Shown: positions 128 through 33,163 of the stretch, one piece after another | Position numbering within the stretch: the stretch's first letter is position 1 | Layout of the letters: the number at the start of each line of letters is the position of its first letter | DNA from: a virus | IMG/VR virus record: IMGVR_UViG_3300007735_000631 | Coordinates: 1-33,163 of that record | DNA length: 33,163 nt | Strand: one strand, 5' to 3' | Translations under genes and position numbers: made by a program | Notes under the pieces: generated by a model | What the model saw: only the letters and a program-made list of their open reading frames with translations | Told to the model about the DNA's origin: nothing | Database searches by the model: none

Positions 128-898
128 TGTAGAGTCACCCATACCCAAGTCCCAAGCAGTAAAAGTTCTACTCAATTCCTCTCTGGGAATCTCTTGCATA
201 TGCTTCTTTTCTTCTAACTCGTTGAGCATTTGACCATAGTAAGAACCCTCTACAGCAGCGTCAAAACTACACTCAAACTCTTGCCTGTACTTGTCTTCAC
301 CCATCTCATTCTTAGCTGCCTTCAGTTCTGTCTCATCTACTACCCCTGTCTCAGAGGCTTTAAACTCCAACAGACCCCATCCTTCTTCTTTCTCTGCCCT
401 GTCTCGCAACTCTTTGAAGTGGTTGTGTCCTTTGGGTGTACCAATGAACAAGCACCAGCCCTGTCTGTCAACCAAGGCGGGTCTGCATATGTCTGTCCAT
501 ATCTTAGGGTTTTGGTCGCCAATTTCATCTAGTATGACCCCATCAAAATACTGACCACGAAGTGAATCGGGATTGTCAGAGCCATACAACTGAATGCGCC
601 TACCCCAAAAATCCACCCTAAGTTCCGAGATGTTTGTTGTACCGCCTAGAGGTTCTGCGTATTTAACAAGGTAGTCCCATGCCACTCGCTTGGCTTGTCC
701 GTAGGTCGGGGCTATATAGGCGTACCTTGGGGCTTCTTTTTGGTTAAGCAACGATTCACGGATTAAATGATTTAACGCTGCAACAGTCTTGCCAAACCGC
801 CTGTGAGCAACCACTACCGCAAAGCGTTTGCCTACCAGTAAATCATGCACCTTTAACTGGTGTTCCCTTGGTTTATAAGGAATTATTAACTCTGCCAT
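1..898 (-). CDS. terL: Terminase large subunit, N-terminal 299 codons (continues at 33036)
   Basis: This is the ATPase half of the DNA-packaging motor. Read with the segment at 32675-33036 it gives one 419-aa protein across the circle junction. Visible motifs are a Walker A variant HRRFGKT (residues 32-38), Walker B VILDE (121-125), the coupling motif GTPKG (153-157) and the start of the RNase H-like nuclease domain at WDLGMGDS (249-256, first catalytic Asp). The ATG at 898 overlaps the end of the terS frame (stop at 886), the usual coupled terS-terL arrangement. The length is near the short end of the family but all core motifs are present. The split is an artefact of where the circle was opened, not a truncation. 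Confidence in the function is high. Confidence 0.95.
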   Translation of the reverse strand, partial: MAELIIPYKPREHQLKVHDLLVGKRFAVVVAHRRFGKTVAALNHLIRESLLNQKEAPRYAYIAPTYGQAKRVAWDYLVKYAEPLGGTTNISELRVDFWGRRIQLYGSDNPDSLRGQYFDGVILDEIGDQNPKIWTDICRPALVDRQGWCLFIGTPKGHNHFKELRDRAEKEEGWGLLEFKASETGVVDETELKAAKNEMGEDKYRQEFECSFDAAVEGSYYGQMLNELEEKKHMQEIPREELSRTFTAWDLGMGDSTSIWVAQLVGTEVRLLDYYENHGVGLDHYVKWIKDNDYSKAEH

Positions 899-1212
899 TT
901 AATTACCAGTTCAGAACCTTCTGGCCCACTATGCTCTACGGCATGGGTTTCTTTCCATCTAGCCCTAGTCTTTAACCAGAAGATAGCAGCAGCAGTATTG
1001 CCGTTCTTAGCCTGTTGGAACAAGGTCTGTCCAATACTAGCGTTAGCATCGATGCGCCCATCATCAAGTTCCTTTTTGTAATACTTCACTAGCGTATCGG
1101 AACTAATCTCTAGCTTGGTAGCTATATCTTCAAAGGTAATGCCTACAGCAGCCAAAGTCTTTACTAGCTTCTTGTTCTCATCAGTCGGCTCATATTTTTT
1201 GCCCTGTTGCAT
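886..1212 (-). CDS. terS: Terminase small subunit
   Basis: A 108-aa DNA-binding packaging initiator. The N-terminal half holds a helix-turn-helix (segments VGITFEDIATKLE and SSDTLVKYYKKEL). The C-terminal half has the AAIFWLKTRARWKE signature common in phage small terminases, which precedes the oligomerisation region. An in-frame ATG exists 21 nt upstream at 1233, but a GGAG Shine-Dalgarno sits 7 nt before the ATG at 1212, and starting there leaves just one base after the methyltransferase stop (1214-1216), so 1212 is preferred. The end overlaps terL by 13 nt. By family role it binds the pac or cos site and loads TerL; the site itself is not recognisable here. Confidence 0.9.
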   Translation of the reverse strand: MQQGKKYEPTDENKKLVKTLAAVGITFEDIATKLEISSDTLVKYYKKELDDGRIDANASIGQTLFQQAKNGNTAAAIFWLKTRARWKETHAVEHSGPEGSELVIKWQS

Positions 1213-1213
1213 T

Positions 1214-2446
1214 TTATATCTCCGAAGGTTCATTGTTAGCGTTTACTAACATAGCTTTTTTACCTGTAAATTCTTCCCATCGTTTTACTATGACATCGCA
1301 ATACTTGGGGTCTAGTTCCATTATTCGGGAATGTCGGTTATGTTTTTCGCATGCAATAATGGTTGTACCGCTACCACCAAACAAATCTAAAACAATTCCA
1401 TTTATGGCACTACCATCTAAAACTGCTTTTTCGACAAGTTCGACAGGCTTCATAGTTGGGTGTAAATCATTTTTGGCGGTTCTTTTGATACGCCAAATGT
1501 CCATTCCGTTCTTGCCACCATAAAACTTGTGGTTGTTTACCCACCCATAAAACATAGGTTCATACATGCTCATGTAATCGCTATTGCTTAAAGTATGGTT
1601 TCCCTTGTCCCAGATAACCAAAGAACGGCATTTAAGTCCTGTTCTTTCCATACTGGCAAAGTATTTGTTTATGCCTAAGCGATAAAATGTTATGTAAAAA
1701 GCACCATCTACTTTAGATGTAATTACGCTGTTAATTGCATCCAGAAAGTCATTGCCTTCTTTGTCTGACATTTTGTCGTTTTTAATGCTTCCATGTTTAG
1801 CATTAAATGATTTAGAGCCATCGCCATGAATACCACCAGTAAAGTCCATCAAATAAGGTGGGTCAGTAAAAATCATGTTTGCTGTCTCAGGCATCAACTT
1901 ATCCACAGCGTCAATGCTAGTGGAGTCCCCACACATCAATCGATGGTTGCCTAATTGGTAAATGTCGCCTAACTTGGTAATTGGCTCGTCAGGTATATCA
2001 GGAACATCGTTCTCATCTGTAAACCCTACCACCATTTCTGGCTCAAGTAGTGCGGCTAACTCTTTAGGGTCAAAACCTAATATATCCAAAGCAAAGTTGT
2101 CAGCCAATAAGTCGTTTAACTCAATGGTCAGCATTTCATTGTCCCACCCTGCGTTTAGGGCTAGGCGGTTGTCGGCAATGATGTAAGCCTTGCGTTGGGT
2201 CTCGGTTAGGTCTTTTAACTCAATAACTGGAACTTCCTCATGTCCTAGCTTACGAGCAGCAGAAAGTCTGCCATGACCTGCAATGATGCCGTTGTCGCCA
2301 TCAACAAGAATCGGGTTAGTCCACCCAAACTCTTTAATGCTTGCTGCTATCTGGGCAATCTGTTCATCAGAATGAGTCCGTGAGTTCCTAGCGTATGGAA
2401 TCAATGTTGATACTGAACGCCATTCTAATTTACGATTTTGTGTCAT
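1214..2446 (-). CDS. ParB-like domain fused to a DNA methyltransferase
   Basis: A 410-aa two-domain protein. Residues about 8-100 form a ParB/Srx-type domain with the GHGRLSAARKLG motif (57-68). Residues about 160-395 are an S-adenosylmethionine-dependent DNA methyltransferase with catalytic DPPY (195-198), HPTMKPVEL (329-337) and the AdoMet-binding FGGSGT (356-361). The catalytic motif precedes the AdoMet motif, the beta-class order, so the product should be N6-methyladenine or N4-methylcytosine; DPPY alone does not decide which. Such fusions are frequent in phages and usually have no partner endonuclease, and none is adjacent here. Likely roles are protection from host restriction or marking of DNA for packaging, the latter inferred from its place directly before terS. 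The ATG at 2446 has a good GGGAG ribosome site. Confidence 0.92.
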   Translation of the reverse strand: MTQNRKLEWRSVSTLIPYARNSRTHSDEQIAQIAASIKEFGWTNPILVDGDNGIIAGHGRLSAARKLGHEEVPVIELKDLTETQRKAYIIADNRLALNAGWDNEMLTIELNDLLADNFALDILGFDPKELAALLEPEMVVGFTDENDVPDIPDEPITKLGDIYQLGNHRLMCGDSTSIDAVDKLMPETANMIFTDPPYLMDFTGGIHGDGSKSFNAKHGSIKNDKMSDKEGNDFLDAINSVITSKVDGAFYITFYRLGINKYFASMERTGLKCRSLVIWDKGNHTLSNSDYMSMYEPMFYGWVNNHKFYGGKNGMDIWRIKRTAKNDLHPTMKPVELVEKAVLDGSAINGIVLDLFGGSGTTIIACEKHNRHSRIMELDPKYCDVIVKRWEEFTGKKAMLVNANNEPSEI

Positions 2447-2478
2447 GTTGTATCACTCCCTTTCGGGTTGGTGAAGTT

Positions 2479-2503
2479 AAAAGGCTAGTTTATACCACTA
2501 GCC
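2479..2503 (-). terminator. Candidate intrinsic terminator after the 54-aa gene
   Basis: On the minus strand a 7-bp stem GGCTAGT/ACTAGCC with a 7-nt loop is followed by TTTT. It lies just after the stop at 2510 and before the methyltransferase. The stem is moderate and the T-run short, so it may only attenuate transcription between the small basic genes and the methyltransferase-terminase genes. Confidence 0.5.
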
Positions 2504-2509
2504 AAGGTT

Positions 2510-2674
2510 TTATTTCATTCTACCCATTTTCTTAGCTGCTTCTGCCATAGCAATAGCAATGGCTTGCTTTGGGTTTTTTACAACCTTACCACCTTTGCCA
2601 GAGTGCAGAGTACCTTCTTTGTACTCACCCATTACTTTGCCAACTTTTTTCTGACCTACTTTTGTCATTTTCAT
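2510..2674 (-). CDS. Small basic conserved phage protein, DUF6496-like
   Basis: A 54-aa protein, below common ORF cut-offs. It has the pattern KVMGEYKEGTLHSG followed by VVKNPKQAIAIAMAEAAKK. I recognise this as the DUF6496 type of small basic phage/bacterial protein (KQAIAIAL-like helix and Lys-rich tail); its biochemical function is unknown. It starts 5 nt after the TGA of the 2680-2931 gene. An alternative ATG lies two codons downstream at 2668. It is the last of four consecutive very small, very basic proteins (41, 52, 83 and 54 aa), which could be minor nucleic-acid-binding or virion proteins (inference). A terminator-like hairpin follows. Confidence 0.8.
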   Translation of the reverse strand: MKMTKVGQKKVGKVMGEYKEGTLHSGKGGKVVKNPKQAIAIAMAEAAKKMGRMK

Positions 2675-2679
2675 GTTAG

Positions 2680-2931
2680 TCACCATTTAACCTTGTTAGC
2701 CCAATATGCTGCACTCATCTTACCCTTGGCAATGTTCTCAGCATGACGAGCCTTGAACGCTTCGTTACGCTTCGTGCCATCAGGAGAACCCTTTACACCC
2801 TGTTGACCAAAGCGAATTAGCTTCACATCCTCACCAGACTTCGCTAAAACAGCGTGAGACTTAGTAGGATGGTCAGGAGTCTTCTTAGGCTTGTTATAGC
2901 CAGAAAACTGCTCAGAGCCTCGTTTAATCAT
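2680..2931 (-). CDS. Small conserved basic phage protein
   Basis: An 83-aa Lys-rich protein. Segments such as GYNKPKKTPDHPTKSH, KLIRFGQQGVKGSP, FKARHAENIAKGKMSAAYW and the terminal NKVKW match a small family I have seen in many phage genomes and metagenomes, often beside DUF6496-type genes. Its role is not established. No signal peptide, membrane helix or cysteines are present. The ATG at 2931 overlaps the stop of the preceding 52-aa gene as ATGA, indicating translational coupling. A virion-associated or DNA-binding role would suit the charge and the compact RFGQQG core, but this is inference. Confidence 0.85.
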   Translation of the reverse strand: MIKRGSEQFSGYNKPKKTPDHPTKSHAVLAKSGEDVKLIRFGQQGVKGSPDGTKRNEAFKARHAENIAKGKMSAAYWANKVKW

Positions 2932-3086
2932 TTCTTTTTAGCAGTCTTAGCCGCTTGCTTAAACGCATCCGCAGTTGGCGCACCCTTCGAGCCTACCTTA
3001 CGCATACGCTCTGGAGTTTTACCAGCAGCCTTTTGCGCTTCAATACGCTTCTGCTTTTTGTGGATGTTTTCGTACAAGCCACTCAT
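2928..3086 (-). CDS. Small basic hypothetical protein (52 aa)
   Basis: A 52-aa ORF bounded by ATGA overlaps on both sides (with the genes ending at 3083 and starting at 2931). The N-terminal helix is Lys/Gln-rich (YENIHKKQKRIEAQKAAG) and the C-terminus reads KGAPTADAFKQAAKTAKKK, a composition typical of small phage proteins next to DUF6496-like genes. Nothing identifies an activity. Support for it being real comes from its tight packing, the coupled start and stop, and its likeness to neighbours in composition. Confidence 0.72.
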   Translation of the reverse strand: MSGLYENIHKKQKRIEAQKAAGKTPERMRKVGSKGAPTADAFKQAAKTAKKK

Positions 3087-3208
3087 TTTTTAGCCTTTTT
3101 CTGTGCGTTTTTAGCAGTTCTCTCACCCCTGACAGGCATGGGTTTAGGCGCAGGTTTCTTTTTGGCTGTGAGTTTAGGATAAAGTCCCATCATCTCAGCC
3201 GCTTGCAT
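3083..3208 (-). CDS. Small basic hypothetical protein (41 aa)
   Basis: A 41-aa ORF whose ATG at 3208 lies 1 nt past the upstream stop (TAA at 3210-3212) and whose stop overlaps the next ATG as ATGA. The sequence is Lys/Ala/Pro-rich (LTAKKKPAPKPMPVRGERTAK), probably disordered and nucleic-acid-binding by charge. I recognise no family. It is the first of four consecutive small basic genes. Confidence 0.62.
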   Translation of the reverse strand: MQAAEMMGLYPKLTAKKKPAPKPMPVRGERTAKNAQKKAKK

Positions 3209-3209
3209 A

Positions 3210-3695
3210 TTAGTCGTCCCCATTTTCTTCCTCCATATCGCCAGACATTTTCTCGGAATCGTCAGTAATCGGGCCTCCAGTTACCCAAGCTGTGCAAGTA
3301 CGTTTGGCAGCACACTTAAAGTCCCAAATCTCGCAGTAACCTAAGTCTCCAGCATCAATAACTGCCCATGCGTCAGCTTCTGTATCACCAGTTTTTAAGC
3401 CTGATTCAATGCAATCTAGCATCTTAGTGGTTTGGATAAAAGCAGCGCAGTTACCGCAACGAGACTTTTTAGCCTGTTCTGGAGAGTTTCGCCATACTTT
3501 AGAGACTTCACGCCAGTAGCCAGCGTTTGCTTCGTTGGGATTCATTGGGCCATAGTTAGCCTTGTCGATAGCCTTCTGGCGACACTCAAGATTGACTTCT
3601 ACGTCACCTGTGGCAACTGGACACGCTTCGCCTTTTTTCTCTTGGCTTTGTATCTCAATCTCAATTTTTACGGATGGCTCAAGTAAACCAGACAT
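3210..3695 (-). CDS. Cysteine-rich conserved phage protein
   Basis: A 161-aa protein with an N-terminal 40-aa acidic/basic region and a Cys-rich core. The cysteines occur as CGNCAAF, LDCIESGL and GYCEIWDFKCAAKRTCTAW, a spacing suited to one or two metal sites or a small Fe-S cluster. I have seen the same core (YGPxNP...CGNCAAF...GYCE...CAAxRTCxAW) in other phages, but know of no assigned function. The tail is very acidic (GDMEEENGDD). The ATG at 3695 has an AGGGAT ribosome site. It is the first gene after the early terminator, so it likely heads the late transcript. The sequence alone does not decide between structural and regulatory roles. Confidence 0.82.
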   Translation of the reverse strand: MSGLLEPSVKIEIEIQSQEKKGEACPVATGDVEVNLECRQKAIDKANYGPMNPNEANAGYWREVSKVWRNSPEQAKKSRCGNCAAFIQTTKMLDCIESGLKTGDTEADAWAVIDAGDLGYCEIWDFKCAAKRTCTAWVTGGPITDDSEKMSGDMEEENGDD

Positions 3696-3718
3696 GGTTA
3701 TCCCTATGGAGTTTATTT

Positions 3719-3747
3719 ATTATCTCATAAAAAAAAAGAGGGAACAA
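3719..3747 (-). promoter_or_regulatory. Candidate promoter overlapping the terminator
   Basis: On the minus strand, TTGTTC (3747-3742) and GATAAT (3724-3719) are separated by exactly 17 nt. The -35 lies in the loop and descending arm of the terminator hairpin at 3729-3755 and the spacer contains its T-run. It points at the Cys-rich protein gene at 3695 and is the obvious place for transcription to restart into the packaging and structural genes. Confidence 0.45.
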
Positions 3748-3755
3748 GTCCCTCT
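3729..3755 (-). terminator. Strong rho-independent terminator of the leftward early block
   Basis: On the minus strand the stem AGAGGGA/TCCCTCT (7 bp) with a 5-nt loop runs into nine consecutive T. It lies about 30 nt past the stop of the HNH protein gene (3787) and before the Cys-rich gene. It is the best intrinsic terminator in the window and marks the end of the block that starts at 8402. Confidence 0.9.
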
Positions 3756-3786
3756 AAAGTCTCAATGGCAACTGAGTGCGTCCATT

Positions 3787-4044
3787 CTATCTGAAAAGTT
3801 TTGCAAGTGTTTCATTTAATACCGACATTTCATCTTGCTTGTAAACAGACCATATCCTAGCTGACCCATGTATCCCATTGTGTGGGCCTTGGTGACAGTC
3901 TTTGCATAAAGGAATACATAAGTATTGGTTATGCTGAACAATATGGTGTGCATCACTAGGAGGAGAAGCATCACAGACCCCACAAGGCATTTCCTTAATC
4001 TTTGCCAAGTGGAGTCGTTCCTTGTTATTGGGTCTGTTGTTCAT
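3787..4044 (-). CDS. HNH nuclease-like protein, Ref-like fold
   Basis: An 85-aa small zinc-finger/HNH protein: CGVC, then DAHHIVQHNQ, CIPLCKDCHQG and PHNGIHGSARIW. Two Cys pairs (CxxC and CxxC) suit a structural zinc, with DAHHI and the second His cluster as the His-Me finger active site. The layout resembles the Ref family of RecA-dependent nucleases of phage P1 and many prophages, though it is shorter than P1 Ref and has no clear RecA-binding N-terminus. It probably nicks or cuts DNA during recombination or replication. The ATG at 4044 overlaps the stop of the 56-aa gene (ATGA). A strong terminator follows. Confidence 0.75.
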   Translation of the reverse strand: MNNRPNNKERLHLAKIKEMPCGVCDASPPSDAHHIVQHNQYLCIPLCKDCHQGPHNGIHGSARIWSVYKQDEMSVLNETLAKLFR

Positions 4045-5002: not shown

Positions 5003-5335
5003 CTACTCCGTAGTTTTTACGCCAAGACGCTCACTTGCTTGCTCAGACCGCCATATATCTGCTTTCATCTGGGCAGCCACTAGCATCCATTTAAGAGTTT
5101 CTTCTTTTTCAATGGCTACCTGTAATCCTTTTAACAACAATTGGTAGTCAACGCTGGCATAGGCTTCTCTTTCTTGGGCAACAGCACTTTCAAACCCCAT
5201 CTCTAGGGCTTCCTTCATTAGCAAGGCTTTTTTTGTTTTTAAGAAACACTCTAAGTAAATTCTTTGTGACTTAGCCTCACCAAACTTACTTGAGTTTTCC
5301 ATAATGAACTCAATGGCTTTGTAAGGGGCTTTCAT
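5003..5335 (-). CDS. Conserved phage protein next to the RusA gene
   Basis: A 110-aa mostly helical protein. Segments such as YLECFLKTKKALLMKEALE, AQEREAYASVDYQLLLKGLQ and EETLKWMLVAAQMKADIWRSEQA match a family often found next to RusA-type resolvase genes in phages; its function is not known. The longer frame starts at 5356, but the ATG at 5335 overlaps the RusA stop as ATGA and has GGAG 8 nt upstream, so 5335 is the better start. The helix pattern suggests a coiled-coil oligomer, perhaps a partner in DNA metabolism (inference from neighbourhood). Confidence 0.82.
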   Translation of the reverse strand: MKAPYKAIEFIMENSSKFGEAKSQRIYLECFLKTKKALLMKEALEMGFESAVAQEREAYASVDYQLLLKGLQVAIEKEETLKWMLVAAQMKADIWRSEQASERLGVKTTE

Positions 5336-5760
5336 TCCAGACACTCCTTGACGCAAATATCTACACCTGCTTGAGTTGAATAAACCTTACTTACATGGAA
5401 GTTGACGATTTGAGAATCATCCTTGTAAACCACAGAATTCATCCCATCTTCTACACTTTTTAAAATGTTGGACGCATCTGGCTTCTTAATTGGCTTCTCT
5501 AAGCCATTTTGGATAGCCTCCAAGCGTTTTTTAGTGCATGACTTAGGAATTGGTACTCTGATGTACAGATAAAGCGATACAGGGGTTTCTAATGGCTCGG
5601 AACTTCCCATTGCTTGTTTGGCAGATTCCTTGATAAGCGTTTCGTAGCTTCTGGTTTTCTCAGGAGTGTAGGCTTGAACAAAGTTGCCACGCTTGGCATA
5701 CCTTGCTCTTTGTTTGCCAACAGGATTACCTTCAACTTTGAATGTCACTATGAATGTCAT
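5332..5760 (-). CDS. rusA-like: RusA-like Holliday junction resolvase
   Basis: A 142-aa endonuclease that by family role is a dimer cutting four-way DNA junctions to make packageable DNA. The N-terminus FKVEGNPVGKQRAR and the metal-binding segment KKPDASNILKSVEDGM...VVYKDDSQI (residues 92-118) are characteristic. The canonical motif is PDxDN, with both Asp residues and a downstream Asp binding Mg2+. Here it reads PDASN, so the second Asp is Ser97; D95, K101 and D114/D115 are kept. Ser at this position may be tolerated in a phage subfamily, but activity should not be assumed. Both ends have ATGA overlaps with neighbours. Confidence 0.9.
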   Translation of the reverse strand: MTFIVTFKVEGNPVGKQRARYAKRGNFVQAYTPEKTRSYETLIKESAKQAMGSSEPLETPVSLYLYIRVPIPKSCTKKRLEAIQNGLEKPIKKPDASNILKSVEDGMNSVVYKDDSQIVNFHVSKVYSTQAGVDICVKECLE

Positions 5761-5978: not shown

Positions 5979-6839
5979 TCATGCAAGTTTCATCCCATAG
6001 TTATTAACACCCTGCGGAATAACAATCCCTGCTTTTTTGACCAACTGGTTTTTCTGGAAAACGCTGTAGTCAACGTGATGATGGTGTCTGCCATAACGAA
6101 AGGCTAATCTTGAAACATCTGGGTGCAAGTCAACCAGCATCTGTGATTTCGGAAGTGTTCCTTCTTTTTCGTAAAACTCTGCTGTGTTACCGCCTTTGAC
6201 AGTTTGTGTAGCAGCTTTGTTTTGTAGGAAGCATTGAAACAAAACAGTACACCAGCCATCTTTGAGCATCCTCAAGGAAAGGTCTGTGTCTTCGTTGTAT
6301 CTACCACGCCAACGATAAGGAACATCGTTTCTGTTCAAGATGCAAGAGTAAATCCTTGTGTTCAGTCGGAAAGCAGGTTTCTTGCGTCTGCTGCCACCAG
6401 CAAAGAAGCGATATTCAAACCCTGCCTGAGAGACATTCTCGTAACGCTCAACAAAGTCCTCTGCAATGCGGAAGATAGTCCCAGAAGAAACTTTGTGACG
6501 CTCGTTGCGGTTTAGGCGACAGAAGCCATCAATGTTATCGTCTAGTACCCAATGCCAAGATGCACCGATAGAGATGGAGTGCTGCCAGCAGAAGTTCCTT
6601 GCTGCGCCAGGCCCAACCCCGAGAGAGTTACCCAACGAGTCGCAAGTATCGTAATCACGCAAATATTGTTTATCAAGGATTAAGATTTTCTCTGGCGAAA
6701 TAACTGACGCATAGTTGTCGTACTCTTGTTCCTCAATAACGATAAAGTACGGAACTTGCATTTCTTCAAATGCTTTGCTTGTCAGTCTGGATTCCCATCT
6801 GCCTTTTGAGACAATGTAAACAGGGTGTTTAGGATTCAT
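5979..6839 (-). CDS. TET-associated-type glycosyltransferase (TAGT-like)
   Basis: A 286-aa GT-A-like glycosyltransferase. Visible features are the N-terminal nucleotide-sugar strand VYIVSKGR (7-14), GPGAARNF (77-84), the metal-binding VLDDN (98-102, DxD equivalent), the acceptor-side RYNEDTDLSLR (180-190) and RHHHHVDY (251-258). This order matches TAGT enzymes, proposed from comparative genomics to glycosylate hydroxymethyl-pyrimidines made by TET/JBP oxygenases in phage DNA. I see no TET/JBP gene, hydroxymethylase or nucleotide-modifying enzyme here, so substrate and modification are open; a host-made base or a protein could be the acceptor. It overlaps the upstream 77-aa gene by 11 nt. The fold call is firmer than the DNA-modification role. 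Confidence 0.8.
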   Translation of the reverse strand: MNPKHPVYIVSKGRWESRLTSKAFEEMQVPYFIVIEEQEYDNYASVISPEKILILDKQYLRDYDTCDSLGNSLGVGPGAARNFCWQHSISIGASWHWVLDDNIDGFCRLNRNERHKVSSGTIFRIAEDFVERYENVSQAGFEYRFFAGGSRRKKPAFRLNTRIYSCILNRNDVPYRWRGRYNEDTDLSLRMLKDGWCTVLFQCFLQNKAATQTVKGGNTAEFYEKEGTLPKSQMLVDLHPDVSRLAFRYGRHHHHVDYSVFQKNQLVKKAGIVIPQGVNNYGMKLA

Positions 6840-7062
6840 CTATCCACACCTTTTTTTCTGTCTGGGTTACTGGAAACAAAACACTCTTGGTTGTAAATGT
6901 GATATTTCTGCCAATCAACTCAGAAAACTTAATCATGTCTTCTGTTGTCAGGAAGTGGACAGTAATGCTGTGTATCTCAGTCAAGTCTTCTTGGACAAAC
7001 TCAGGCATACCTTGCCACTCCTTTTCCCAATTAAATTCTTCGTCACCAAATAAGTCTTTCAT
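6829..7062 (-). CDS. Hypothetical protein, small alpha/beta (77 aa)
   Basis: A 77-aa protein with an acidic N-terminus (MKDLFGDEEFNWEKEW) and a compact beta-alpha-beta segment ITVHFLTTEDMIKFSELIGRNIT followed by FTTKSVLFP. I have seen similar sequences as small phage proteins and beside TAGT-like genes; no activity is assigned. The ATG at 7062 overlaps the loader stop (ATGA), and its own end overlaps the glycosyltransferase start by 11 nt. Close coupling to the glycosyltransferase suggests a helper role in the same process (inference). Confidence 0.72.
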   Translation of the reverse strand: MKDLFGDEEFNWEKEWQGMPEFVQEDLTEIHSITVHFLTTEDMIKFSELIGRNITFTTKSVLFPVTQTEKKVWIDES

Positions 7063-7775
7063 GCTTTTCTCACTTGCTTGGCAAACTGTCTAAAACTTTC
7101 TGGCATTGGTGCAGCCTTTTTTGCATCCTCAATAATCTTTGTGAGGGCAGGGTCAGGCTCATTTGATGGCGCAACTGTGAGCCTTACTCTATCGGCAGGG
7201 TTTGGTTTGACAGCAACCCACTCAGCTTTAAATGTTTGCCAGTTACGAACAACAATTTCGTTTAAAGCGTTATCCAGAGTCCAACCCGCAATTTTTGCTT
7301 GCTCTCGGATTGACTTCATTACTCGTTCAGTAATCTGAGCCTTTCGTGCTTTTCTCTGTTTGACAAAAGAATCCCAAACTTCAATTGAAACGCCTTCTGG
7401 CGTATCTGTCTCTGTCTCTCCCTCTCTCTCTGTCTCTGTCTCTGTCTCTGTCTCTGGGATAGCACTTTGCTTGCGTTCTGCTAGCACTCCGCTAACAAGT
7501 ATGAAAAAGTCGTTATCAATCAATGGTTTAAGTCCATCCTGATATTCTTTTTTGGTAATGTGCAATCGAAAGACTAGCTCATCTAGTGAGCCATCAAAAA
7601 CACCATCTTTTGACTCACTTGCAAGCAACCAGAGCATAGGTGCTATCGCTTTGCTAGCAATAGGCAAGCGCATGAAAGCTCTGTCGTTTAACAGGTCACG
7701 ATGAAGTTTTATCCACGGAGGGCATCTGTCTTTGTAATGTTGAAAGACTGCCCAATTCTTTGGCTGTAATAGCAT
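7059..7775 (-). CDS. Putative replication initiator / helicase loader
   Basis: A 238-aa protein of the phage replication-organiser type. The N-terminal ~90 residues look like a winged-helix DNA-binding domain (PPWIKLHRDLLNDRAFMRLP..., LVFRLHITKKEYQDGL). A low-complexity ETETETETE linker follows, then a C-terminal helical domain with VWDSFVKQRKARKAQ and WQTFKAEWV, as in many phage O-like/DnaT-like proteins that bring the host helicase to the phage origin. No polymerase, primase or helicase is encoded here, so host recruitment is the likely strategy. The frame extends to a TTG at 7793, but the ATG at 7775 has a better-spaced AGAGA and is preferred. Confidence 0.75.
   Translation of the reverse strand: MLLQPKNWAVFQHYKDRCPPWIKLHRDLLNDRAFMRLPIASKAIAPMLWLLASESKDGVFDGSLDELVFRLHITKKEYQDGLKPLIDNDFFILVSGVLAERKQSAIPETETETETEREGETETDTPEGVSIEVWDSFVKQRKARKAQITERVMKSIREQAKIAGWTLDNALNEIVVRNWQTFKAEWVAVKPNPADRVRLTVAPSNEPDPALTKIIEDAKKAAPMPESFRQFAKQVRKA
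7405..7456. repeat. TCTGTC-type microsatellite in coding sequence
   Basis: About 50 bases of repeated tctgtc/tctc units encode the Glu-Thr linker of the loader protein. The 6-bp periodicity is a multiple of three, so copy changes would lengthen or shorten the linker without a frameshift. Such tracts are prone to slippage. Confidence 0.85.
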
Positions 7776-7884
7776 GATTGTCTCTTGTTCCAATTCTCCC
7801 AGAAAAGAAACTGCGGCAGGAGGGGAGACTTCTCTTTTCGTATCGGGTAATTAGTCCGAACTAGCCGTGTTTCAAAACATTGTA

Positions 7885-9928: not shown

Positions 9929-10302
9929 GTACCATCACCAGTATGAGAAATCCGTATGCAACTCATACGGACTTCCGTGATTTCCAAGGGTTGATTCCTA
10001 GTAACTCGCATTTCTTGCCTAGCAACATAGACATGATTTGCGAGAGGAAGGGACACTTCCTAATCGGAGAGTGGAAGAAACCTAATGAGAATATGGCTAC
10101 TGGTCAGCAATTGCTACTCAAGGCTTTTGCTCAAGTACCTAAATTTACTGTGTTAGTCATCATTGGTAACACAGACGGAGAAACAGAAGTTGGAGATGTG
10201 TTCCAAGTTGTTCTGGGTAAGTGCGTCAAGATAGGAGAAGGTCTTGATTACTTAAAAGACTTTTATGTCATGTGGTACGAATTTGCAAACTCGAAAGGAT
10301 AG
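9925..10302 (+). CDS. PD-(D/E)XK nuclease-like protein
   Basis: A 125-aa protein with the layout of a small restriction-endonuclease-fold domain: NIDMICERKGHFLIGEWKKP (34-53) carries the Asp (D36) and the ExK (E49-K51) on consecutive strands, followed by a helix ATGQQLLLKAFAQ with the usual Gln (Q61/Q62) and a strand (FTVLVIIGN). This fits a Mg2+-dependent nuclease acting in phage recombination, consistent with the annealing and SSB-like genes before it. The ATG at 9925 overlaps the stop of the 24-aa ORF. The assignment is from motif spacing only. Confidence 0.65.
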   Translation: MSTITSMRNPYATHTDFRDFQGLIPSNSHFLPSNIDMICERKGHFLIGEWKKPNENMATGQQLLLKAFAQVPKFTVLVIIGNTDGETEVGDVFQVVLGKCVKIGEGLDYLKDFYVMWYEFANSKG

Positions 10303-10304
10303 TT

Positions 10305-10616
10305 ATGTCATCATACGCACACATTGAAATGTTGATAATCCAATGGGCAGAAGCTCGAAAGATTATTCCTAATAGCAACCCAGAGTCTCAGCTACTCAAA
10401 GCAGTCTCAGAGATGGGTGAACTAGCTGACGCAACCATCAAGCACGATAAGGAAGCAGTCATAGACGCAGTAGGGGATGTTATGGTCTGTCTTATCAATT
10501 ATTGTGTGCTGCAAGACATAAACCTAGTAAACTGCATGGAAGTTGCGTATGACCAGATTAAGAATCGCAAGGGCATACTATTGCCTAACGGAGTCTTCCA
10601 AAGAGATACTACTTAG
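10305..10616 (+). CDS. MazG-like nucleotide pyrophosphohydrolase
   Basis: A 103-aa all-alpha NTP pyrophosphatase-like protein. The Mg2+-binding pattern EMGE (36-39) and, about 17 residues later, DAVGD (54-58) are the MazG/dUTPase-2 superfamily signature. In phages such enzymes hydrolyse (d)NTPs or lower host alarmones. The ATG at 10305 has AAGGA 6 nt upstream; the frame extends further 5' but only into the preceding gene. It is the last gene of the rightward operon and its stop overlaps the convergent 47-aa gene by 8 nt. Confidence 0.85.
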   Translation: MSSYAHIEMLIIQWAEARKIIPNSNPESQLLKAVSEMGELADATIKHDKEAVIDAVGDVMVCLINYCVLQDINLVNCMEVAYDQIKNRKGILLPNGVFQRDTT

Positions 10617-10752
10617 CCAACAGGTAAAGACCCACGTTTGAAAAAGCATAACCTGCATAAACAATAGCCATGTGCGGGTTATCTTTCCAAAGCTGCTCAC
10701 CAGCAATGTAGGCGTAGATTGCCCCTGTCAGAATAATGAGCCAAGCACTCAA
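10609..10752 (-). CDS. Small membrane protein with TTG start (47 aa)
   Basis: A 47-aa hydrophobic protein with two probable membrane spans: SAWLIILTGAIYAYIAG, then PHMAIVYAGYAFSNVGLYLL. The GYAFSNVGLY segment recurs in small membrane proteins of other phages, so I consider it real. No ATG precedes it; a TTG at 10752 overlaps the metallophosphoesterase TGA as TTGA, with AGGTG upstream. It is the last gene of the leftward mega-block and overlaps the convergent MazG-like gene by 8 nt. The function is unknown. Confidence 0.7.
   Translation of the reverse strand: MSAWLIILTGAIYAYIAGEQLWKDNPHMAIVYAGYAFSNVGLYLLAK
10648..10682 (+). terminator. Candidate hairpin terminating the rightward operon
   Basis: ATAACCTGCA (10648-10657) pairs with TGCGGGTTAT (10673-10682) with one G-T wobble, giving a 10-bp stem and a 15-nt loop, followed only by CTTTCC. 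It lies 31 nt after the MazG-like stop, inside the convergent 47-aa gene. Without a T-run it may be a weak terminator or an RNA processing site. Confidence 0.3.
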
Positions 10753-11735
10753 AATGCACCTACATCAATGACTTCACCCCTAAACATTATTTGGTCTTCA
10801 TCAAATTTCTGAGCCAACTCTGGCAACAATAAGTGTCCATTAAAGAAGTTCAGCACCGCAAAGCCTGACCTGTGATTACTAGGGTTTATCTCAGCATAAG
10901 TAAATTGTGGGCCATCAGTCTCAGCAAGTGTTCCTGTATCTACTCCGTATCTACATCCGTTATAGTCAGAAAACGGAGTAACCTTTAAAGAGTGCAAGTG
11001 TCCAGTTACGATTGACACACCAGCGTTGACTGTATTGTTGTGTGCGGCATGAATACCACCTTTGTAACGATGCTTAACAATGACGCTATCGGTAGGCCAT
11101 ACTGCCCAACAGAAGTCCCAATCTGGGATATGGTCTGTCAGCTTAAACCCGACAACATCCTTAAACTGTGGTGCGTGTTGCGCTAAACGATTGCCAAATC
11201 GAATGTCGTGATTACCCCATGTAAAGCATAACTTTACATTGTGCCTCGCTGCTTTAGCGGTTTCCTCAATCTCACCCAACGCACCTTGCGTAGCTTTTAG
11301 TTCTTGGATAACAGAAGTCTGTGGCTGGTCAGTTATATCGTGACGTGATATAGACGCACCATCAAACGCATCACCATTGCATATTACTGCTTTGGGTTTG
11401 AACTCTTGGATAGCCCATAGAAGCCCTTTAAACGCTGTTGTACGCTGTGCAGGTATGAAGTGAGCATCTGAGAACACAATTACAGTTCCGTCTAGGATGC
11501 CTAGTTCTATCTGCTTTAAAGGAGAGAATGATTTGGGTCTGTTTTTGTCGTAGTAAGCACCACGATGGTCACTTGCACTAAGTGCTACGTTGTATTGTTT
11601 TTCAATCCACCTTCTGCGTAGATGAACCGCCCTATTGTGTATCCCAAGATGTTCAGCTATTTTTGTGGCAGACTGAAGTTGACCCCATAACTGGATGAAC
11701 TCCATATCCGTACAAGTTTCATTATGTGAACTCAT
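10749..11735 (-). CDS. Calcineurin-like metallophosphoesterase with N-terminal HTH
   Basis: A 328-aa protein. Residues 10-45 carry a helix-turn-helix-like segment (SATKIAEHLGIHNRAVHLRRR). The rest is a metallophosphoesterase with all dimetal motifs: SDAH (89-92), GDAFD (121-125), GNHD (174-177), a histidine cluster near 229-232 and GHLH (245-248). Such phage enzymes are phosphodiesterases or phosphatases on nucleic acid or nucleotides; the DNA-binding N-terminus suggests a DNA substrate. The ATG at 11735 has AAGGA 5 nt upstream and overlaps the metallopeptidase gene by 14 nt. It lies beyond the lysis genes at the far end of the leftward block, an unusual place for a DNA-metabolism gene. Confidence 0.88.
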   Translation of the reverse strand: MSSHNETCTDMEFIQLWGQLQSATKIAEHLGIHNRAVHLRRRWIEKQYNVALSASDHRGAYYDKNRPKSFSPLKQIELGILDGTVIVFSDAHFIPAQRTTAFKGLLWAIQEFKPKAVICNGDAFDGASISRHDITDQPQTSVIQELKATQGALGEIEETAKAARHNVKLCFTWGNHDIRFGNRLAQHAPQFKDVVGFKLTDHIPDWDFCWAVWPTDSVIVKHRYKGGIHAAHNNTVNAGVSIVTGHLHSLKVTPFSDYNGCRYGVDTGTLAETDGPQFTYAEINPSNHRSGFAVLNFFNGHLLLPELAQKFDEDQIMFRGEVIDVGAF

Positions 11736-32542: not shown

Positions 32543-32678
32543 TTTTGTCCTTTGGAGGGCGACCCATTCGGGGTTTATCCGATTGTAATACTTTTACCAC
32601 ATTTTCCAACATTTCGAGTCGCAATTCAAGTTCTTTTACTTTAGGGGCTAAATTAACGCCTTGTCGTTCAACAATCAT
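32499..32678 (-). CDS. Small protein between terL and portal, with GRPPK motif
   Basis: A 59-aa protein. The N-terminus (VKELELRLEMLENVVKVLQSD) is a heptad-patterned coiled coil, then KPRMGRPPKDKNGT, an AT-hook-like GRP(P)K basic patch. The ATG at 32678 overlaps the terL stop as ATGA (a GTG at 32687 extends the frame by three codons). Its last 44 nt overlap the portal gene, so two frames are used there. It may be a DNA-binding or packaging accessory factor; only the motif supports this. Confidence 0.7.
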   Translation of the reverse strand: MIVERQGVNLAPKVKELELRLEMLENVVKVLQSDKPRMGRPPKDKNGTERLEINPTSRD

Positions 32679-33163
32679 ACAATCCACTTCGGTGCTGAGT
32701 TAATAGGCTTAGACCACGTTGAATGACCTTCATCCAATCCAAGGGCTAAGTAACGGAAAGAATCAGAGCCATGACTAGACCAATCGTGTAGTGGTCTTTC
32801 ATAGAATATCTTACGCTTCTCATCGTAATCTCTGCGGTAATTTCTCAGGCAGTTCAGTCCTGTTTGCACTTTTGGTACATTAAACCAGCACCTTGGAAGC
32901 AACCTTCTAACCGCTTGGATGCCATCGTCTAGTCCCATCCTCGGGGCTATTTTGACTTCTAACCCTGAATCCTCAAGCATCTCTAGTCGGCTTTTACCTG
33001 TGCCTAACTCCCTAACTCTTACGTCATGGGGCAGAATATGCTCTGCTTTTGAGTAGTCGTTATCTTTAATCCACTTAACGTAATGGTCTAAACCCACCCC
33101 ATGATTCTCGTAGTAGTCAAGTAATCTGACCTCAGTACCAACCAACTGAGCCACCCAGATAGA
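32675..33163 (-). CDS. terL: Terminase large subunit, C-terminal part (continues from position 1)
   Basis: This is the nuclease half of TerL; the ORF enters from base 33163 and, after closing the circle, joins the ATPase half at bases 1-898. Conserved points are VRLLDYYENHGVGLDHYVKWI (strand-helix of the RNase H-like fold), HDVRVRELGTGKSRLEML and the C-terminal HDWSSHGSDSFRYLALGL, whose Asp is a catalytic metal ligand. Together with the WDLGMGD Asp in the other segment this gives the expected nuclease site. Bases 33037-33163 duplicate 1-127. Confidence 0.95.
   Translation of the reverse strand, partial: SIWVAQLVGTEVRLLDYYENHGVGLDHYVKWIKDNDYSKAEHILPHDVRVRELGTGKSRLEMLEDSGLEVKIAPRMGLDDGIQAVRRLLPRCWFNVPKVQTGLNCLRNYRRDYDEKRKIFYERPLHDWSSHGSDSFRYLALGLDEGHSTWSKPINSAPKWIV
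33037..33163. repeat. Terminal direct repeat, second copy
   Basis: Identical to bases 1-127 over its full length; see the first copy. Confidence 0.95.

Follow-up and report, generated by a model that had tools for sequence, protein, structure and literature searches.

The TAGT family of glycosyltransferases (PF20691) has been equated with the enzyme by which phages T2 and T6 attach a second glucose, and solitary TAGTs, found without an alpha- or beta-glucosyltransferase in 288 of 753 phage genomes, may encode novel transferases (PMC13216743, 2026). Among giant Aeromonas T4-like phages, Aeh1ORF087c has been described as a glucosyltransferase with a presumed DNA target and an unknown base (PMC8056088, 2021, citing Iyer et al., 2013), and to the extent of that citation the family is already predicted to be a DNA glycosyltransferase. 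The table of gene 42 carriers given by Petrov et al. (2010; PMC2993671) omits phages Aeh1 and 65, in agreement with our own search for gp42. The same study remarks that some T4 relatives without the T4 modification genes have DNA that type II enzymes can cut. This speaks against complete modification of cytosine and suggests that the modification of such phages lacking gp42, if any, is partial or not on cytosine. Beyond this general remark we found no restriction-digest report on Aeh1-type phages in the literature.

Results

The window, by which we mean the whole 33,163-nucleotide stretch of DNA analyzed (IMG/VR record IMGVR_UViG_3300007735_000631), carries an exact 127-bp terminal repeat (positions 1-127 equal 33037-33163) and therefore represents a complete genome that closes into a circle of 33,036 bp, with the reading frame of the large terminase subunit running across the circular join. 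A Pfam scan of its 52 predicted proteins reveals the gene content of an SU10-like podovirus (SU10 portal, capsid and adaptor), with additional matches to a Sak annealing protein, RusA, a ParB-N6/N4 methylase, a MazG-like protein and a metallophosphoesterase. The MazG-like nucleotide pyrophosphohydrolase and the calcineurin-like phosphoesterase (10272-10616 and 10749-11735) possibly have functions in the dNTP pool.

The gene pair under study lies on the minus strand, where a 77-aa reading frame (6829-7062) comes first and overlaps by 11 nt the start of a gene for a 286-aa glycosyltransferase (5979-6839). On the same strand the pair is flanked directly upstream by an O-like replication protein (7059-7793; PHROG 26426, E = 3.3e-31, and PHROG 678) and downstream by a RusA Holliday junction resolvase (5332-5760; PF05866, E = 1.5e-33). 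The replication gene contains a TCTCTG-type low-complexity repeat (7400-7460) that encodes an ETETET-like stretch. Positions 2-2446, again on the minus strand, hold in a row a 410-aa fusion of ParB_N to an N6/N4 DNA methyltransferase (1214-2446; PF02195 and PF01555), a 115-aa probable terminase small subunit (886-1233), named solely for its position between this fusion and TerL, and the N-terminal part of the terminase large subunit (2-898; PHROG 2, E = 7.3e-35), the rest of which follows through the join at 32675-33163. The slot beside the terminase genes is thus held by the ParB-methyltransferase; that it has the same direction as the glycosyltransferase pair had been reported in the initial annotation of this sequence.

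The 286-aa protein matches PF20691 over positions 2-205 of 205 (E = 5.4e-42; 144.5 bits, with the curated cut-off at 27.5), in keeping with the TAGT-like label that it first received, and PHROG 842, 'beta-glucosyl-HMC-alpha-glucosyltransferase' (E = 1.1e-45). An AlphaFold2 model built from 73 homologues has a mean pLDDT of 93.4, and its residues 1-264 match GT-A enzymes, among them GalNAc-T2 (Z 14.1), cellulose synthase (13.8) and GnT-I (13.4), while a sequence search of solved structures gave no significant match. The motifs WVLDD (97-101), NED (182-184) and GG (216-217) can be aligned in other TAGT subfamilies as well, and the alignment of the 73 homologues shows no variation at D100-D101, D184 and G216-G217 and very little at E183. 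Judged by the confident GT-A model and the conserved active-site residues, the enzyme looks intact, with a predicted GT-A fold that is complete and predicted active-site motifs that are conserved. Since the best structural neighbors include protein O-glycosyltransferases, the fold does not by itself point to DNA. The family is widespread, with at least 600 matches in viral contigs, and its subfamilies are clear in a tree whose long branches leave the order among them unreadable. Membership in PF20691 stands without a TET enzyme because it is the profile on which the name of the family is based; in the window both the profile match and the GT-A fold are present, and the TET/JBP association is absent.

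The 77-aa protein has no Pfam or PHROG match, which agrees with its first description as a coupled protein of no visible family, and 27 of its relatives likewise match nothing in these collections apart from one weak PHROG match. We name this the MPEF domain (consensus EWxGMPEFxQ...IxVHFxxxEDxxxFxxLxGQxITxKTKxIWxP). By tblastn it corresponds to the N-terminal part of longer TAGTs, including those of Pectobacterium phage POP12 (45%, E = 7e-4) and Tenacibaculum phage PTm1 (32%, E = 1e-4). MPEF is fused to the glycosyltransferase in Ah1, POP12, PTm1 and two Vibrio phages, and in Ah1, POP12 and the two Vibrio phages the gene is 384-399 aa with MPEF in front. MPEF is a near-obligate, sometimes fused partner of TAGT: across 207 loci, 195 of 203 MPEF copies lie beside the glycosyltransferase or are fused to it (180 directly upstream, 15 within its reading frame), in counts that are not independent, as some loci share a contig and the best 80 per search were used (170 distinct glycosyltransferase loci counted), and that come mostly from contig fragments. 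The remaining copies are mostly at contig ends, separated by an inserted extra gene, or second copies (Ah1, POP12), and the glycosyltransferase adjoins also at the loci retrieved by MPEF alone (L086-L161).

The usual layout, surveyed in 85 loci, is a short reading frame overlapping the glycosyltransferase start, with frames that vary between loci. Because the frame offset varies, MPEF and the glycosyltransferase are coupled genes, and a programmed frameshift from one into the other is ruled out. Several loci depart from this layout. A second, diverged MPEF-like reading frame lies directly downstream of the fused MPEF-TAGT of Ah1 and POP12 (L084, 6879-7094; L085, 6831-7031), a SAM-methyltransferase-like reading frame is inserted between MPEF and TAGT in L155 (694-1494) and also in L160, and a GT4-like one in L187 (8902-9987). 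Tandem TAGT genes stand behind MPEF in L166 (10001-11856), L122 (2984-4670) and L156 (4197-5815), suggesting that two sugars are added sequentially.

Modelled alone, MPEF reaches a pLDDT of 82 and a pTM of 0.47 and forms no sheet, and hhalign of MPEF with the tails of ParB-linked Mom, TET, TAGT2 and GNAT proteins yields a single weak match, to the tail of Mom, over 25 columns (58%). MPEF appears to be an adaptor or targeting domain and not an enzyme that makes the acceptor. The early suggestion that a small protein is involved thus survives in part: the partner is conserved and sometimes fused, but it does not resemble a maker of the acceptor.

The closest described system, the Aeh1ORF087c-type TAGT, is a direct homologue of the window enzyme (about 55% identity, PF20691), and it resembles the window in that Ah1 and Aeh1 have no gp42 and Ah1 no TET, but there MPEF and the glycosyltransferase form one protein, whereas the window has two overlapping genes. 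The T2/T6 beta-glucosyl-HMC-alpha-glucosyltransferase shares with the window enzyme PF20691, the GT-A class and recognizable WxxDD, acidic and GG motifs, yet has no BLAST similarity to it (E = 0.38). In T6, moreover, a hydroxymethylase and an alpha-glucosyltransferase act upstream in the pathway, whereas the window phage has neither, and no MPEF is seen beside the T6 gene, unlike the window, where MPEF adjoins.

We searched the window for enzymes that could make an acceptor. The Pfam scan of the 52 predicted proteins (25 of 26 families listed) contains no oxygenase, thymidylate synthase or C5-methylase, and the families listed do not include the alpha- and beta-glucosyltransferases PF11440 and PF09198; searches of the entire record with Tet_JBP, Thymidylat_synt, DNA_methylase and T4 gp42 give no match. 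Of the T-even glucosyl-HMC pathway, neither gp42 nor, among the families listed, the alpha- or beta-glucosyltransferase that adds the first glucose was found. Positive controls indicate that these searches could have worked, as PF12851 matches five TET-carrying ParB loci, and only those, among 12 searched, and the gp42 query matches T4 and T6. That no TET/JBP protein or hydroxymethylase is visible, as noted at the outset, therefore applies to a complete genome scanned both by protein family and across the whole record.

This absence extends to the relatives of the pair. PF12851 has no match in 30 MPEF-glycosyltransferase records, and TET is absent from 18 further unselected records (0/48 overall), with locus L100 positive in the same search; an iterated TET profile matches at one of 214 MPEF-glycosyltransferase loci (L100) and is without a match in the window and the other 213. 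Among the MPEF-glycosyltransferase records searched, Ah1 and POP12 alone have thymidylate-synthase matches, which are td-like rather than gp42, and the T4 gp42 query has no match in Ah1, Aeh1 or POP12. A C5 methylase occurs in 3 of 31 records, and six records besides the window have terminal repeats, of 27-127 bases, and thus count as complete genomes. Clustering of the reading frames of 19 records placed the glycosyltransferase in 18 and ParB/MPEF in 14, with the next family in 7. Since there is no third widely shared family and the TET and synthase searches are near-empty, no acceptor-making gene travels with the MPEF-TAGT subfamily.

A different TAGT subfamily (the L274 type) has ParB before and TET after the enzyme at 17 of the 17 loci found, and this frequency, set against one in 214 for MPEF-TAGT, makes the missing acceptor-making gene a property of the subfamily. 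The L274-type cassettes are like MPEF-TAGT in having a TAGT enzyme, a ParB partner and, in relatives, a position next to the terminase genes, but they differ in the constant presence of TET, another adaptor tail, the lack of MPEF and a very distant TAGT subfamily. The view of TAGT as a partner of TET/JBP proteins, from which the initial annotation started, thus holds for the L274 subfamily but not for MPEF-TAGT, and the neighborhood survey of TAGT homologues lacking TET/JBP that it proposed finds TET absence to be normal for the latter.

Of the MPEF-TAGT loci seen, L100 alone stands within a TET hypermodification cluster, with a TET-like, an aGPT-like and a P-loop reading frame followed by MPEF and TAGT in one row (216-3979); the aGPT-like frame, so labelled by resemblance, is homologous to one in the TET cluster of L334. 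A TET-like reading frame also lies near the fused relative L185, and the nearby TET at these two loci points to at least occasional use, or the possibility, of a hydroxymethyl acceptor.

In 29 of 85 loci, about a third, a ParB_N domain opens a protein of ~200 aa and MPEF makes up its C-terminal part. The ParB-MPEF/glycosyltransferase arrangement is followed closely by the genes of the small and large terminase subunits in 39 of 52 loci, whereas terminase genes are downstream in 6 of 97 loci with the short MPEF, which favor replication genes (45/97); the contrast in terminase adjacency corresponds to p of about 2e-18 for loci that are not independent. The window MPEF is of the short form, with ParB neither fused nor adjacent, and the pair is situated in the replication region rather than just upstream of the terminase genes, so that the argument from this slot rests on relatives.

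The slot itself accommodates a variety of enzymes. Psychrobacter phage pOW20-A has a ParB-methylase, TerS and TerL in a row, and Psychrobacter phage Y8A has a near-identical ParB domain followed by Mom (PF25680, E = 1.8e-55), TerS and TerL. Across 80 ParB loci, 66 of which contain the terminase large subunit, the partners of ParB include N6/N4 methyltransferase fusions (45), Mom (12), TAGT (7-8), C5 methyltransferases (5), TET (5) and an ABC-ATPase with GNAT (2). At L258-L337, L256 (4462-5719) and L257 (4461-5675), ParB_N upstream of the terminase genes is followed by, or fused to, varied DNA-modifying enzymes (N6/N4 and C5 methyltransferases, Mom, ABC-GNAT, TAGT, TET and a P-loop kinase), and the tail domains vary with the type of enzyme. 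In L035-related terminase neighborhoods of E. coli and Yersinia phages, the slot contains no recognizable modification gene.

Methylases and Mom act on unmodified bases, and the ParB-methyltransferase and ParB/Mom cassettes accordingly have no precursor gene. They share the ParB scaffold and the slot with the module of the MPEF-TAGT relatives but are unlike the window in their chemistry, and the window pair is separate from its ParB-methyltransferase. By context, the MPEF-glycosyltransferase pair appears to be one of several exchangeable DNA-modifying units, and it probably puts a sugar on phage DNA, since relatives keep it where other phages have DNA-modifying enzymes.

Discussion

We propose, with a probability of roughly 0.6, that MPEF and TAGT constitute a two-component enzyme that glycosylates phage DNA without a phage-encoded TET or dCMP hydroxymethylase. 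DNA as the target is well supported by the genomic context of the module, and we infer that the two proteins form a complex for which DNA is the substrate. TAGT would be the catalytic GT-A subunit, transferring a sugar from a nucleotide sugar to phage DNA, and MPEF a dedicated adaptor that would hold the glycosyltransferase on DNA, either through ParB or directly. The acceptor may be an unmodified base (an exocyclic amine), or a hydroxyl supplied without a conserved phage gene, by enzymes of the host, as the initial annotation suggested, or by unrecognized ones. Glycosylation would probably be restricted to a limited set of sites, or to specific sequences, and would not replace a base across the whole genome, and the sugar would presumably protect or mark the phage DNA. 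We found no biochemistry or nucleoside data in the literature for phages carrying the module.

Within this proposal, we tentatively raise the possibility that MPEF-TAGT glycosylates an unmodified base directly, for example at the exocyclic amine of adenine or cytosine, with no prior hydroxymethylation and by analogy with Mom and the N4/N6 methylases. Such direct action is favored by parity with the other enzymes of the ParB slot and by the lack of an acceptor gene, and a hydroxymethyl acceptor is favored by the TAGT precedent and locus L100. All characterized TAGT chemistry uses a hydroxylated acceptor, the T2/T6 enzyme extending glucosyl-HMC (PMC13216743), and if the window enzyme did the same, a hydroxymethylated pyrimidine could come from an oxygenase or synthase too divergent to be recognized, or from the host or a co-infecting element. 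The TET, aGPT-like and P-loop kinase cluster of L100 and the TET-like gene near the fused L185 speak for such a supply. Nevertheless, we regard it as rather unlikely, as PF12851 does recover phage TETs and the iterated profile found none in the window or 213 other loci, the glycosyltransferase-bearing records have no third gene family in common, and the Thymidylat_synt and gp42 searches are empty except for the td-like matches of two T4-like phages.

GREB1 has been proposed to be distantly related to the J-base transferase and is reported to transfer O-GlcNAc to proteins, and the GT-A neighbors of the window enzyme include polypeptide GalNAc transferases and GnT-I. If the pair glycosylated a host or phage protein, such as a factor bound to DNA at packaging or replication, the missing acceptor-making gene would need no explanation. 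This reading, which takes up the initial suggestion that the target is not DNA, seems improbable to us because the module of the relatives carries a ParB_N fusion and sits in the terminase-adjacent slot common to five kinds of DNA-modifying enzyme, the methylase, Mom, GNAT and TET positions among them, and because TET accompanies a sister TAGT family. Sugar genes of phages commonly change the surface of the host, and a GT4-like or SAM-methyltransferase reading frame between MPEF and the glycosyltransferase (L187, L155/L160) recalls glycan operons; that the gene serves to modify a small molecule or cell-surface glycan as auxiliary metabolism, or is an inactive relic, is nonetheless very improbable given motifs conserved in 73 homologues, an intact frame, a confident model, the near-obligate MPEF/ParB partner and the placement beside terminase or replication genes.

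Collectively, glycosylation of phage DNA by the MPEF-TAGT pair is the reading that we prefer. This analysis adds a partner protein, MPEF, with its fusions to ParB, a genomic slot held in common with Mom, methylases and TET, and the finding that TET is nearly excluded; in the literature covered we found no earlier account of these features, Iyer et al. (2013) being represented by its citation in later work. DNA glycosylation in the literature covered always starts from a base hydroxylated by another phage enzyme. MPEF-TAGT is a widespread phage family with a defined partner and a DNA-modification slot, in genomes consistently without such a hydroxylating enzyme. Relatives occur in the cultured phages Aeh1, Ah1, phiAS5, 65, POP12 and PTm1, which makes the question of the acceptor accessible to experiment, and if the acceptor is indeed an unmodified base, this would be a new kind of DNA chemistry.
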